A stretch of DNA of 64,000 nt, taken from Peribacillus frigoritolerans (GTDB taxonomy: Bacteria > Bacillota > Bacilli > Bacillales > DSM-1321). The position numbers and the translations under genes were made by a program. Positions 2,952-45,591 of the stretch are shown here, piece by piece (position 1 is the stretch's first letter; each line of letters opens with the position of its first letter). The DNA is taken from assembly GCF_001636405.1 (NCBI RefSeq), contig NZ_KV440950.1:2627712-2691711 (forward strand). Direction: 5' to 3'. The notes under the pieces are model-generated. The model made no database searches. It saw only the letters and a program-made list of their open reading frames with translations, and was not told the origin of the DNA.

Positions 2952-2989
2952 AAAAAGAACCGCAACGCGTTGACGTTGCGGTTCTTTTT
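2952..2989. terminator. Bidirectional rho-independent terminator
   Basis: Perfect 15-base arms aaaaagaaccgcaac (2952-2966) and their complement (2975-2989) with an 8-base loop. The A-run on one side and T-run on the other suit both the + strand small gene and the - strand LrgB-type gene, which converge here. Confidence 0.9.
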
Positions 2990-3671
2990 ATAGGAAATTA
3001 CTTATAAAAGGAAAGAAACAGGAAATGAGGATACCTGCGATAGCCATTGCCGCACCTGCGACAGCCCCGGTAAATTCACTTTCCTGGGCAGCTTGAGCCG
3101 TTCCAAGTCCATGAGCGATCGTACCATAGGCGATACCACGTGCGAAGGGCATTGTAATGTTTAGTTTATCCATCATTTTTGGTGCGATCATCGTACCCAG
3201 CACCCCTGTTAAAATGACGAAGGCAGCTGAAATATTGGAATTCCCGCCATAAAGTTCCGTGATTTCAACCGCGATTGGCACTGTAATGGATTTAACCGCC
3301 AATCCTTGGAATATGAATGGTGGAAGTGAAAATGCTTTAGCGATGGCGAAGGCAATGATCAATGTGACAAGGAGACCAAAAATCATCCCGCTAATAGCCG
3401 GCATTGCATATTTAACGATTATTTTTCTGTTTTTATAAAGTGGTACGGCCAAAGCAACGGTAGCAGGTCCCAGGAAATAGGTAATGATGTCTTTTCCAGG
3501 TGAATAATCCTCGAAGTCCAAACCGCTGATCAGCAGTACGAGAATAATTGTAACCGTACTGAAAAATACGGGCGTCGTAAAAGGTGATGGGTGTTTAGCA
3601 TATATTTTCCTTCCGGTGAAATAGGCAAGGATGGTTATCAAGATGCTATATGTTGTGATGAACGCTGTCAT
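2988..3671 (-). CDS. LrgB/CidB-family membrane protein
   Basis: A 227-residue protein that is hydrophobic throughout, with about six to seven membrane segments. The LrgB family pairs with small LrgA/CidA holin-like proteins and affects murein hydrolase activity, autolysis and, in some bacteria, pyruvate transport. Family signatures include FLGPATVALAVPLYKNR, KSITVPIAVEI and IAYGTIAHGLGTAQA. ATG at 3671 is chosen because AGGAGAGG lies 9 bases upstream; a longer in-frame extension to 3734 has no such site and runs deep into the upstream gene. It overlaps the LrgA-type gene by 26 bases, so translation is probably coupled. No lytSR or cidR regulator is adjacent. Confidence 0.9.
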   Translation of the reverse strand: MTAFITTYSILITILAYFTGRKIYAKHPSPFTTPVFFSTVTIILVLLISGLDFEDYSPGKDIITYFLGPATVALAVPLYKNRKIIVKYAMPAISGMIFGLLVTLIIAFAIAKAFSLPPFIFQGLAVKSITVPIAVEITELYGGNSNISAAFVILTGVLGTMIAPKMMDKLNITMPFARGIAYGTIAHGLGTAQAAQESEFTGAVAGAAMAIAGILISCFFPFISNFL

Positions 3672-4038
3672 GCTGTTTAACCTCTCCTCTATTGGATAGC
3701 TTCTGAACGGTCCATGCTGAAACGATGAATCCAAATATCAGGCTGATACCTAAGGTAAGTGCCAAAGGCAAACCGAATTCAATGAAAAGCCATCCCATGG
3801 TCATTAAGCTGATTGAAATGGGAATGAAGAAAAAGGCTAGGTGCTTTACCAAAAATCCTGAAGTAAGTTCAATCCATTCGACTTTTATGACCTTCGTCTG
3901 TAATAAACCGAATAACAGAATCATGCCGATGACGTTGCCTGGTATAGGTAAGTGAAGTAAATTGGCTAAATAATAGCCAAGTTTGCAAATGATGAGCAGG
4001 AAGATAAGCTGCACGATAAAAGCAAATATTTTTTTCAT
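3646..4038 (-). CDS. LrgA/CidA-family holin-like protein
   Basis: A 130-residue protein with four predicted membrane segments (about 5-23, 30-48, 63-82 and 88-110) and a polar C-terminus. The family motif LPIPGNVIGMILLF is present around residues 30-43. LrgA/CidA proteins oligomerise in the membrane and act with LrgB. AAAGGAC lies 6 bases before the ATG. It is the first gene of a two-gene minus-strand operon. Confidence 0.9.
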   Translation of the reverse strand: MKKIFAFIVQLIFLLIICKLGYYLANLLHLPIPGNVIGMILLFGLLQTKVIKVEWIELTSGFLVKHLAFFFIPISISLMTMGWLFIEFGLPLALTLGISLIFGFIVSAWTVQKLSNRGEVKQHDSVHHNI

Positions 4039-4242: not shown

Positions 4243-4797
4243 CTATGCTTCAAGTAACTGCTGTTCATCATCATCATGTTGTCTAAGGATATGAAAGGTG
4301 TATAAATCTTTAGGGATTTCATACAGATCGTAGATATCTCCTTCATGATTGATCTGATCATAAAGGGATTTTCTTGTTTCGTTGGCAATGACGGCATAGG
4401 GAAGCTTTTCTGCGGCTTTTATGGAGCGGATATTTTTTTTGCGAATTCGCATGAAGACCGTTTCCAAACCAAGCTCGAAAAAAAGCTCTTTGAAGAAAGC
4501 GTCTTTTGCGATGGCATTATACCCTTTTCCATGATAAGGCTTGCCAAGCCATGTGCCTAAGAAACCTGCACCATTTTCAATATCGTATAAAGAAATACAA
4601 CCGATGGGATTTTCCCATTCATCCAAGATTGTTCGTGATATGAGTTGCCCAGCATCTTCGGCTTCGATCGTTTGCTTAGTAATGAATACATATTCTTCAT
4701 ATGAATCTACCTTATGGCGCACGAAAGGGAAGACATCTGGATGCGTCATTTGTTCATAAAGAGAAAAACAATCTGTGAAATCTCTCTTTTTTAACAT
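4243..4797 (-). CDS. GNAT-family N-acetyltransferase with structured leader
   Basis: A 184-residue GCN5-related acetyltransferase of the RimJ/RimL-like branch. It should transfer acetyl from acetyl-CoA to an amine; the substrate is unknown. The acetyl-CoA loop is GKPYHGKGYNAIAK (about residues 85-98; Q/RxxGxG/A-like with HGKGYN). The pattern FMRIRKKNIRSIKAAEKL around 115-132 is typical of the C-terminal half. ATG at 4797 has GGAGGG 6 bases upstream. That site is enclosed in an elaborate set of alternative hairpins (4804-4901), so expression is probably controlled at translation. The acidic and Gln-rich tail (QHDDDEQQLLEA) is not part of the family core. It is a single-gene transcript. Confidence 0.88.
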   Translation of the reverse strand: MLKKRDFTDCFSLYEQMTHPDVFPFVRHKVDSYEEYVFITKQTIEAEDAGQLISRTILDEWENPIGCISLYDIENGAGFLGTWLGKPYHGKGYNAIAKDAFFKELFFELGLETVFMRIRKKNIRSIKAAEKLPYAVIANETRKSLYDQINHEGDIYDLYEIPKDLYTFHILRQHDDDEQQLLEA

Positions 4798-4803
4798 TTC
4801 CGT

Positions 4804-4901
4804 CCCTCCGTTTGAGGGCAGTTCTTATGCGTAGTCGCTGCCCACCCTCGAAATTTTTTAAGTCGTTCATCAAAAAATTTCGGGGTGGGAATCGAACCCA
4901 C
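4804..4901 (-). promoter_or_regulatory. Switch-like leader with tRNA T-arm-like hairpin
   Basis: Read on the minus strand toward the GNAT start: (a) a perfect T-arm-like hairpin, GTGGG-TTCGATT-CCCAC, at 4885-4901; (b) a long hairpin pairing 4883-4889 with 4841-4847 and 4872-4882 with 4849-4859 (one bulged base, 12-base loop); (c) a hairpin pairing 4838-4843 with 4816-4821; (d) a hairpin pairing 4814-4818 with 4804-4808, which covers part of the GGAGG ribosome binding site. Each helix shares bases with the next, so they exclude one another. Upstream on the same strand (4902-4937) are GGC..GCC and ACCGG..CCGGT mini-stems, but no complete cloverleaf. I do not recognise a known riboswitch class. 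The overlaps are direct observation; the switching is inference. Confidence 0.6.
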
Positions 4902-5130
4902 TAGAACCGGAAACCGGTGGCGCACCATTTGCCTTCCCTATTTTTATTGTCAGAAAGTATGCAAATCTAAAGAACCTTACGAAGGTATAATACTAAAAAA
5001 AAAACGGTTTGGGAATAGGTTTTTTGCCTTTTTTTTTCGTCAAATTTCAACTTTTTCTTGAAGGGTGAAATCTTTAGGCAAACGTCTGCATTCTTCCATG
5101 AAAAACTGATTGTTTCGCCCGTTTTTTTCT

Positions 5131-15907: not shown

Positions 15908-15944
15908 CAAATTTTGAAATCTTATGAAAATTATATAAATGGAT

Positions 15945-16042
15945 CTTATCGAGAGAGGTGGAGGGACTGGCCCGAAGAAACCTCAGCAACCAGCTTACGC
16001 AAAGGTGCTAAATCCAGCAAGCAGAGCTTGATAGATGAGGAG
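15945..16042 (+). promoter_or_regulatory. SAM (S-box) riboswitch
   Basis: The S-box core is clear: cttatcgagagaggtggaggga, then ctggcccgaagaaacctcagcaacc, then aggtgctaaatccagcaag, closing with gatagatgagg. These are the conserved segments of the class I SAM riboswitch. With SAM bound, the following terminator (16051-16080) forms and transcription stops; without SAM an antiterminator allows expression of yitJ-metH. It occupies most of the 309-base gap 15832-16140. Confidence 0.95.
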
Positions 16043-45091: not shown

Positions 45092-45404
45092 GTGCGTCCG
45101 GCATTGGTGCAATCTATATCTCTCGAATCATGAAGGCAGTAGTAATGATTAGCTTAACGGAAGGGTGTCTGGAGTGACCCAGAATCTGAAGGAAGCGAGC
45201 GGCAATCCTCCAGTCCGAGGAGCAGGAACTTAATACAAGGTTAGTTAACATTGGATGAGCCTGCTTGACAAGATAAAGTCCGTACTGCCTAAAGTGTTGC
45301 AGAGTAAATTAAGCGGATAGATGGAGAGGAAGATTACCTCAGTTGGCGACTTACTTAGCGATGAGTAGCTGGAACAGTCTGAAGTCAGCAGAGGTCATAG
45401 TACC
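45092..45404 (+). mobile_element. Truncated class C group II intron (5' ribozyme half)
   Basis: It starts GTGCGTCCGGCATTGGTGCA, the 5' end of bacterial class C group II introns, and continues with the domain I words ATGAAGGCAGTAGTAA, ACGGAAGGGTGTCTGG, GAATCTGAAGGAAGCG, GAGGAGCAGGAACTT, AAAGTCC..ACTGCC and CAGAGTAAAT, ending AAGTCAGCAGAGGTCATAGTACC, which borders domain IV. The order and wording follow the Oceanobacillus iheyensis class C intron. The reverse transcriptase ORF and domains V-VI are absent from 45405-45591, so it cannot splice or move by itself. Class C introns insert just past terminator hairpins, as here. Confidence 0.88.
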
Positions 45405-45591
45405 ATACCAACTCCAGATGGAATGGGAACACGCATTGCTGCCTGTCCGAATGTTTTCTTTAGTATCATAAAAAGTCCGGACCAGAGTATAGGCGCGATT
45501 TAAGAATTTCATATAGACTGTCATGTGGGTGATTGGAAAAAGAATTCGGGTGTTTTAATAATGTGATTAAATGATTTCTCCATCACACTTT

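Follow-up and report, generated by a model that had tools for sequence, protein, structure and literature searches.

The locus and its overlapping hairpins

The window (the whole 64,000-nucleotide stretch of Peribacillus frigoritolerans DNA that was analysed) carries on its minus strand a gene for a GNAT N-acetyltransferase, preceded by a structured leader that is present in a single copy in its own genome. The features of the locus, in the order in which the minus strand is read, are as follows.

4987..5015 (-): weak candidate promoter, TTCCCA, 17 nt, TATTAT, with the tRNA-like domain lying about 50 nt downstream
4936..4938 (-): GGG, 5' strand of the acceptor-like stem P1, with its pairing partner at 4882-4884
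4919..4933 (-): D-arm-like hairpin GGC-AAATGGTGC-GCC, with GG at the positions of tRNA G18 G19
4906..4918 (-): hairpin at the position of the anticodon arm, ACCGG-TTT-CCGGT, of a length that differs among leaders
4885..4901 (-): T-arm GTGGG-TTCGATT-CCCAC (from the sequence and alignment A3)
4882..4884 (-): CCC, whose alternative partners are GGG 4936-4938 in the tRNA-like fold and the long hairpin's 3' arm (from the sequence and P1-forced folding)
4841..4889 (-): long competing hairpin CCCACCCCGAAATTTTTT ... AAAAAATTTCGAGGGTGGG (from minimum-energy folds)
4816..4843 (-): anti-anti-Shine-Dalgarno helix GGGCAG ... CTGCCC, the third hairpin of the preliminary description (from co-evolution)
4804..4818 (-): Shine-Dalgarno hairpin CCCTC-AAACG-GAGGG of the OFF state (from the sequence and weak co-evolution)
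4243..4797 (-): GNAT N-acetyltransferase of 184 aa, the presumed regulated gene

The preliminary description of this DNA had claimed four overlapping hairpins, and a direct reading of the minus strand finds all four, with the bases shared between successive hairpins exactly as it had described. Specifically, the arms of the long hairpin (4889-4872 and 4859-4841) pair with one bulged A, the third helix joins GGGCAG (4843-4838) to CTGCCC (4821-4816), and the fourth joins CCCTC (4818-4814) to the GAGGG of the GGAGGG site (4809-4804), 5' of the GNAT ATG at 4797. For the 102-nt segment 4901-4800, the calculated folding energy is -44.6 kcal/mol, with a z of -6.1 (none of 200 dinucleotide shuffles as stable), and the fold of the 181-nt leader 4960-4780 has a z of -5.0 (again none of 200 shuffles as stable). 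The long hairpin and the Shine-Dalgarno (SD) hairpin are formed in the minimum-energy folds of both, from which the T-arm is absent, and this makes the T-arm the less stable alternative in a calculation that leaves tertiary contacts out.

In a consensus scan, the candidate promoter has 9 of 12 consensus matches (shuffles, mean 0.4). The pattern TA[TC]NAT was found no more than 60 nt upstream in 71 of 138 leaders, at scattered distances, against 48.9 expected from shuffles, which weakly suggests a conserved promoter upstream of the leader. Downstream of the GNAT gene and on the same strand, the window holds an LrgA and LrgB pair (2988-4038, minus strand); further away lie a SAM riboswitch (S box; 15943-16041, plus strand, 88.3 bits) and two adjacent Group II intron domains, D1-D4-3 and D1-D4-1 (45168-45428, plus strand).

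A tRNA-like domain around the T-arm

The T-arm belongs to a compact tRNA-like domain at window positions 4882-4938 (minus strand), completed by the stretch 4938-4902 on its 5' side, which the preliminary description had overlooked. The domain consists of a 3-bp acceptor-like stem, a D-arm whose loop contains GG, a variable hairpin at the anticodon position, and a canonical T-arm, and its conserved core reads GGG-AA-GGC-AAATGGTGC-GCC-(hairpin)-TCTA-GTGGG-TTCGATT-CCCAC-CCC, with TCTA as the short variable region and with AA at the junction (AAA in a few leaders). Across 61 distinct sequences, the GG of the D-loop, the TTC of the T-loop, and A58 are invariant, and position 57 has G in 60 of them, the exception carrying A. 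The elbow sequences of tRNA (T-loop UUCRAUU and D-loop GG) are therefore present in the leader, and conservation extends beyond the elbow to the unpaired A6 A7, A11 A12, and T47 A48. As a full tRNA the domain fails, since its acceptor-like stem has 3 bp and not 7, it has no CCA, and the loop at the anticodon position is variable and not of 7 nt.

The leader T-arm is one mismatch away from that of 6 of the 7 distinct tRNA-His genes and 6 of the 9 distinct tRNA-Gly(UCC) genes read, and it differs at 3 bases from the T-arm of the window genome's own tRNA-Gly(UCC). The best tRNA alignment score of the window leader was 33, which none of 100 shuffles reached (highest, 28). The alignment ranks tRNA-His ahead of tRNA-Gly (26.0 vs 24.7), while a covariance model built from 22 leader cores (R1) has a real tRNA-Gly gene as its best non-leader match in 9 of 9 genomes, with the anticodon UCC in 8 and CCC in one. 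The alignment thus favours tRNA-His slightly and the covariance model tRNA-Gly, and the two methods do not agree on the tRNA most resembled.

Other programs support the tRNA-like identity in part. ARAGORN called no tRNA in the window; at its default setting it called one in 3 of 169 leaders and at its pseudogene setting in 23 of 169, against none of 169 shuffled leaders at either setting. Its loosest setting gave 242 calls in leaders and 138 in shuffled leaders and is, given the calls in the latter, uninformative. The Rfam tRNA model (RF00005) covered one leader, L321, end to end (model 1-71) at 25.5 bits, below its cut-off of 29; in the same locus, a Bacillaceae-1 RNA (L321:92-158, plus strand, 51.1 bits) lies about 440 nt before the leader. 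The tRNA-Sec model reached 27.8 bits in another leader (L204; cut-off 47), and in the tmRNA model (RF00023; cut-off 47) only positions 347-363, its T-arm part, match, with 12.8 bits in the window region and 15.5 in the leader loci. A search of all of Rfam at E up to 2 placed a match of the tRNA clan over the leader in 3 of 14 leader loci, all below the cut-off, and no family of Rfam 15, yjdF included, reached its cut-off on the leaders tested. In the window, no gathering-level Rfam match lies at the leader, and the tmRNA T-arm part is the sole tRNA-type match in the region.

The leader is conserved and attached to one GNAT gene

A 201-base query matched 52 of 61 genomes, its own genome counted, and beyond the genus the matching was limited to query bases 44-156 (approximately window 4947-4835). 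An exact pattern scan of one genome per species (84,980 species) returned at least 119 loci, which are conserved by construction at the patterned bases; among the loci listed are Salinibacillus, Oceanobacillus, Priestia, Rossellomorea, Anoxybacillus, Geobacillus, Halobacillus, Neobacillus, and Peribacillus. Priestia megaterium is one species in which the leader is present. R1 found 59 loci, of which 58 cores were read (L181, with a short flank, was left out); 57 have the GNAT gene next by pattern, and the remaining core (L290) lies 66 bases before a GNAT match. The same GNAT gene comes next in 167 of 169 loci, a set that counts some genomes twice and whose 160 leaders with a found start reduce to 139 distinct sequences; the other two loci (L074 and L131) end inside the GNAT gene. 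This bears out the earlier proposal that the leader belongs to the GNAT gene.

The co-occurrence of leader and gene was also followed by genome. Within the window's order, 309 of 397 genomes have an R1 match at E up to 1e-4 (5 of them weakly) and 308 of 397 have the GNAT gene; by recount, 304 of 397 have both, 4 have the GNAT gene alone, and 5 have a weak R1 match alone. The upstream DNA of the four GNAT-only genomes (G036, G107, G264, and G184) has no core when read by eye. The five weak matches have E values of 5e-5 to 8e-5; that of G004 is a tRNA-Gly gene, and the other four are presumed to be tRNAs. Leader and GNAT gene are jointly absent from two genomes of the window's own genus (G004 and G014). 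An R1 match was found in 34 of 398 genomes of the class (E up to 1e-7) and in 4 of 348 of the phylum, all of them within the window's order or one further family (f49), in which 48 of 200 genomes, from 7 of 19 genera, match R1 at E up to 1e-6; in searches of more than 40 genomes, such as these, stricter filters apply and weak matches are lost.

Among the leader-negative genomes of family f49, 15 of 20 have a GNAT match (one weak and partial), and the 12 upstream regions read hold other sequences, with one marginal R1 match (L349, E 1.1) of half-decayed look and a retained fragment, GTTCT.TGGGTTTGAAT, in L346 and L353. The leader has thus been lost or reshaped there, and the GNAT gene can dispense with it. 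Several f49 genomes without the standard leader (L346, L353, L344, L352, L355, and L359) have other long leaders, located within about 230 nt of the GNAT start on its upstream side, which share words such as ACGTCTAGTTC and GTTCGAAATG and may be remodelled descendants. In four other leaders (L046, L063, L119, and L130, two of them from Gottfriedia), an insertion of about 100 nt lies inside the long hairpin, both arms of which are kept.

An origin from mobile DNA was considered as well. The exact leader pattern gave no match in viral contigs, and among 72,556 plasmid records the GNAT gene matched two, of which one is a replicon of 690 kb and the second shows a partial match of 38%. On these two results, a phage or plasmid origin was rejected.

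Compensatory changes in the tRNA-like stems

When the 61 distinct sequences are aligned to the model, 98.5% of the cells pair, a figure to be read with the fact that the 73-sequence alignment was fitted to the model and hence leans towards the structure. Changes on both sides occur in 6 of 16 pairs (mean of 2.5 in shuffles, none of 500 reaching 6; no more than 3 in slid structures), and the number of cells with double changes is 32 (shuffled mean 4.5; slid structures at most 8). The stem at the anticodon position, the only one to covary in a first set of 22 sequences, has two-sided changes in 4 of its 5 pairs in alignment A3. The T-stem is paired in 100% of cells and has two covarying pairs, with G-C replaced by A-U at 51-63 in 11 and U-A replaced by C-G at 50-64 in 2 of the 61 distinct sequences; since the 11 A-U sequences all come from f49, they represent few evolutionary events. 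P1 is paired in 96.2% of cells in A3 with no compensatory change, and the D stem in 99.5%, with only one-sided G-U variants and one unpaired cell. Neither of these two stems has a double change in either set, and the case for them is built on invariance and on analogy with tRNA. In three divergent leaders (L336-L338), P1 as drawn is broken, and inspection by eye allows a longer stem in a shifted position (AUUUUAG/CUGAAAU).

The lack of covariation in homologous leaders that the preliminary description had set against its own reading was thus not seen, the anticodon-position stem and the T-stem both covarying. Comparison among leaders in this way establishes the tRNA-like domain, through two of its four stems, together with its attachment to the GNAT gene.

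Mutually exclusive helices and the ribosome site

The proposed mutual exclusion of the helices holds, as read from the bases they share. Two partners are available to the strand GAGGGTGGG that follows the long hairpin, CCCACCC on its 5' side and the CCCTC region on its 3' side; CCCTC in turn has the SD site as an alternative partner. The pairing of GGG (4938-4936) with CCC (4884-4882) is the most direct competitor of the long hairpin.

Permutation tests on 43 dereplicated leaders were used to examine whether these strands evolve together. In the anti-anti-SD helix, each strand pairs better with its own partner than with those of other leaders (-17.4 vs -14.6 kcal/mol; z -8.0, with none of 2000 permutations doing as well), and the helix is rebuilt with other letters, by eye, in L280 (GGACAG/CTGTCC) and in L336-L338 (GATGA/TCATC); its co-evolution is likewise established by comparison. 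The pairing of the SD with the CCCTC strand shows weak specificity (29 of 2000 permutations did as well), the control pairing of GAGGGTGGG with the SD did not reach significance (167 of 2000), and the pairing of GAGGGTGGG with the T-arm strand, at the base of the long hairpin, holds no covariation information (1693 of 2000). Among the four hairpins first described, the T-arm and the third helix therefore covary, the fourth does so weakly, and the base strands of the long hairpin give no signal.

The consequence for the ribosome site was calculated by folding 138 leaders. When the tRNA-like pairs were forced, the mean openness of the SD rose from 0.275 to 0.521; of the 138 leaders, 89 gained more than 0.1 and 49 did not, and a decrease was seen in 4. 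Forcing P1 alone had the same outcome as forcing the whole tRNA-like fold (89 of 138 up), whereas forcing the T-arm alone raised the openness in 41 of 138 and lowered it in 5, and with the D and anticodon stems the corresponding numbers were 20 and 2. The leader of the window itself showed a small rise, from 0.20 to 0.36. In this model, which has no tertiary terms and strongly favours the OFF state, the mean cost of adopting the tRNA-like fold is 9.6 kcal/mol. The earlier claim that formation of the tRNA-like side favours a free ribosome site is thus supported by the folding, while its choice of the T-arm alone as the main trigger is not, and the acceptor-like GGG/CCC stem is predicted to have that role.

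Between the SD and the start codon, 24 of 137 leaders have a run of at least 5 T. Such a run was found in 2 of 232 control genes, which were strong-SD genes taken from the same loci, and is absent from the window's own leader. Where the run follows the SD hairpin, as in some genera, that hairpin could additionally act as a transcription terminator.

The GNAT gene product

The GNAT protein belongs to the Pfam family Acetyltransf_3 (E 1.8e-13; 51.8 bits, cut-off 25.4) and has no NCBIfam match. Its AlphaFold model is confident (pLDDT 92.8), and the nearest folds among the best 50 Foldseek matches are FdhC, SpeG, and RimJ/RimL-type enzymes at 12-22% identity, the FdhC and SpeG matches having a probability of 1.00. 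In the search with the family profile, the best relative of solved structure is MccE (E 1.5e-6), and SpeG is also present. Assignment of a substrate from structure was rejected, the matches being too distant. The proteins are acidic (mean pI 5.4, range 4.3 to 7.8, 97 orthologs).

Operon context gave no substrate either, as none of the neighbour families is found at half or more of the 97 loci, which have flanks of differing lengths. The commonest neighbour family lies upstream of the GNAT gene on the same strand in 46 of 97 loci. The one member of it that was scanned is an amidohydrolase gene (L032:2957-4069, plus strand).

A proposed ON switch and its alternatives

Taken together, we consider it likely, on the comparative and folding evidence, that the tRNA-like domain is a cis-regulatory leader, an ON switch that controls a RimJ/RimL-type GNAT acetyltransferase and most likely works in outline like the tRNA-like yjdF riboswitch. 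By default, the CCC and part of the 3' strand of the T-arm would pair with the downstream GAGGGTGGG to form the long hairpin, leaving the CCCTC strand free to pair with the SD site, so that translation would be off; in some genera, the T-run after the SD hairpin could also end transcription. Upon a signal, the tRNA-like domain would fold through the GGG/CCC stem, the D-arm, the T-arm, and a D-loop/T-loop elbow, the base of the long hairpin would be lost, and the freed GAGGGTGGG would pair with the CCCTC strand and release the ribosome site. The elbow contact, the ON direction, and the signal are what we infer from this arrangement. For the signal, our preferred guess is a toxic small molecule of amine-like character, which would stabilise the tRNA-like fold and would itself be acetylated by the GNAT, forming a detoxification circuit.

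A doubtful but possible alternative is that the leader senses a protein or the ribosome by tRNA mimicry, with a tRNA-handling factor binding the mRNA elbow, capturing the tRNA-like fold, and setting the gene by its own load of tRNA. Candidate binders are RNase P, the tRNA-handling factors TruB or TrmFO, the ribosome, and the GNAT itself. The invariance of the D-loop GG and the T-loop TTC.A in the 61 distinct sequences is what an elbow reader would demand, and the closeness of the T-arm, within one base, to 6 of 7 tRNA-His and 6 of 9 tRNA-Gly(UCC) genes points the same way. The ribosome, RNase P, T-boxes, and several proteins are described as elbow binders in PMC4810234, and the tRNA-like yjdF domain is reported to bind the ribosome in PMC9142559. 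However, the 3-bp acceptor-like stem and the lack of a free 3' end make readers of the acceptor end unlikely, the conservation of the unpaired A6 A7, A11 A12, and T47 A48 goes beyond what the elbow explains, and the acidity of the GNAT argues against its binding its own leader RNA. A fuller form of this idea, in which real tRNAs and the mRNA domain would compete for a factor that reads the elbow, be it RNase P, an enzyme that modifies T-arms, or the ribosome, and the GNAT would be made when that factor is freed, so that the leader would be a sensor of the translation machinery, we regard as unlikely.

Polyamines stabilise tRNA folding, and the switch might instead be opened by polyamines or magnesium as tRNA-stabilising cations, with the GNAT acetylating polyamines. 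Such a reading draws on the presence of SpeG spermidine acetyltransferases both in the profile search and among the nearest folds, with a query-based TM of about 0.62-0.72, but SpeG identity is only 12-15%, FdhC, MccE, and RimJ/RimL-type enzymes score equally, and conservation as strict as this is hardly to be expected of a general cation sensor; we hold it to be improbable.

We give next to no credence to a decayed tRNA or tRNA-derived insertion that merely happens to lie upstream of the GNAT gene: the sequence does resemble tRNA-His and tRNA-Gly, but it is near-invariant over many families with the same downstream gene, is single copy, shows compensatory changes, and is absent jointly with the GNAT gene from G004 and G014. 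A decayed tRNA without a link to the GNAT start, which the preliminary description had raised against itself, was looked for and not seen, and a mobile insertion was rejected on the same grounds of single copy, constant downstream gene, and compensatory change. By sequence comparison, the element is a conserved mRNA leader and not a decayed tRNA.

Comparison with known RNAs

The proposed ON switch invites comparison with several known systems. T-boxes are also tRNA-related switching leaders of Firmicutes mRNAs, but they bind tRNA, whereas the leader resembles it; the T-box model, which we take to be part of the Rfam library searched, matched neither in the window at the gathering score nor in the region at E up to 5. 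The leader is like tRNA-His and tRNA-Gly(UCC) in that the D-arm, the anticodon-arm position, the short variable region, and the T-arm follow one another in the same order; it differs from them in its 3-bp acceptor-like stem, the missing CCA and 7-nt anticodon loop, an A in place of U at position 8, and its embedding in an mRNA.

Within the open-access literature searched, including PMC11109978, PMC8632094, PMC6429828, and PMC2864571, which were searched by term, no tRNA-like leader before GNAT genes was found. The bacterial leaders of PMC9788692, some of which precede GNAT genes with amine-acting enzymes according to that paper, are an unrelated RNA; its main text does not contain the word tRNA, and no guanidine class is among the Rfam matches of the present leader.

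A relative in design is the yjdF (azaaromatic) riboswitch (RF01764), the sole riboswitch class described as tRNA-like among the papers found (PMC9142559). The preliminary description had known of no riboswitch class with such an arrangement, and in this respect a related class does exist, although the leader itself stands outside RF01764. According to PMC9142559, yjdF is an mRNA leader with a tRNA-like fold related to tRNA-Lys and with equivalents of the D- and T-loops; upon ligand binding, the bound state outcompetes the pairing of the ribosome site and releases it, and acetyl transferases are mentioned among the genes controlled. The leader is not a member of this family by sequence, since the test fails in both directions: RF01764 has no match in the leader region (E up to 5) or in 14 leader loci (E up to 2), and R1 does not match two true yjdF loci. 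RF01764 itself occurs in 2 of 81 relatives, on contigs other than those of their leaders. The two also differ in build, the junction of the leader being AA in contrast to the extended purine-rich J1/2 that holds the yjdF ligand, its downstream gene being a GNAT and not yjdF, and its expression platform being a relay of three exclusive helices. Both of its loops keep the canonical tRNA sequence, whereas the yjdF crystal structure (PMC10987639) places the helices as in tRNA with no direct loop-loop contact.

The leader is kept before one enzyme gene by hundreds of species of the window's order. If the proposed switch is true, it would offer a handle on the substrate of a widely conserved GNAT, as the molecule that folds the leader may be what the enzyme handles. 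It would also be a second, sequence-distinct tRNA-like leader with T- and D-loop sequences more canonical than those of yjdF, and a rare reuse of the tRNA shape for gene control, in which tRNA would have been recruited as a regulatory element more than once.
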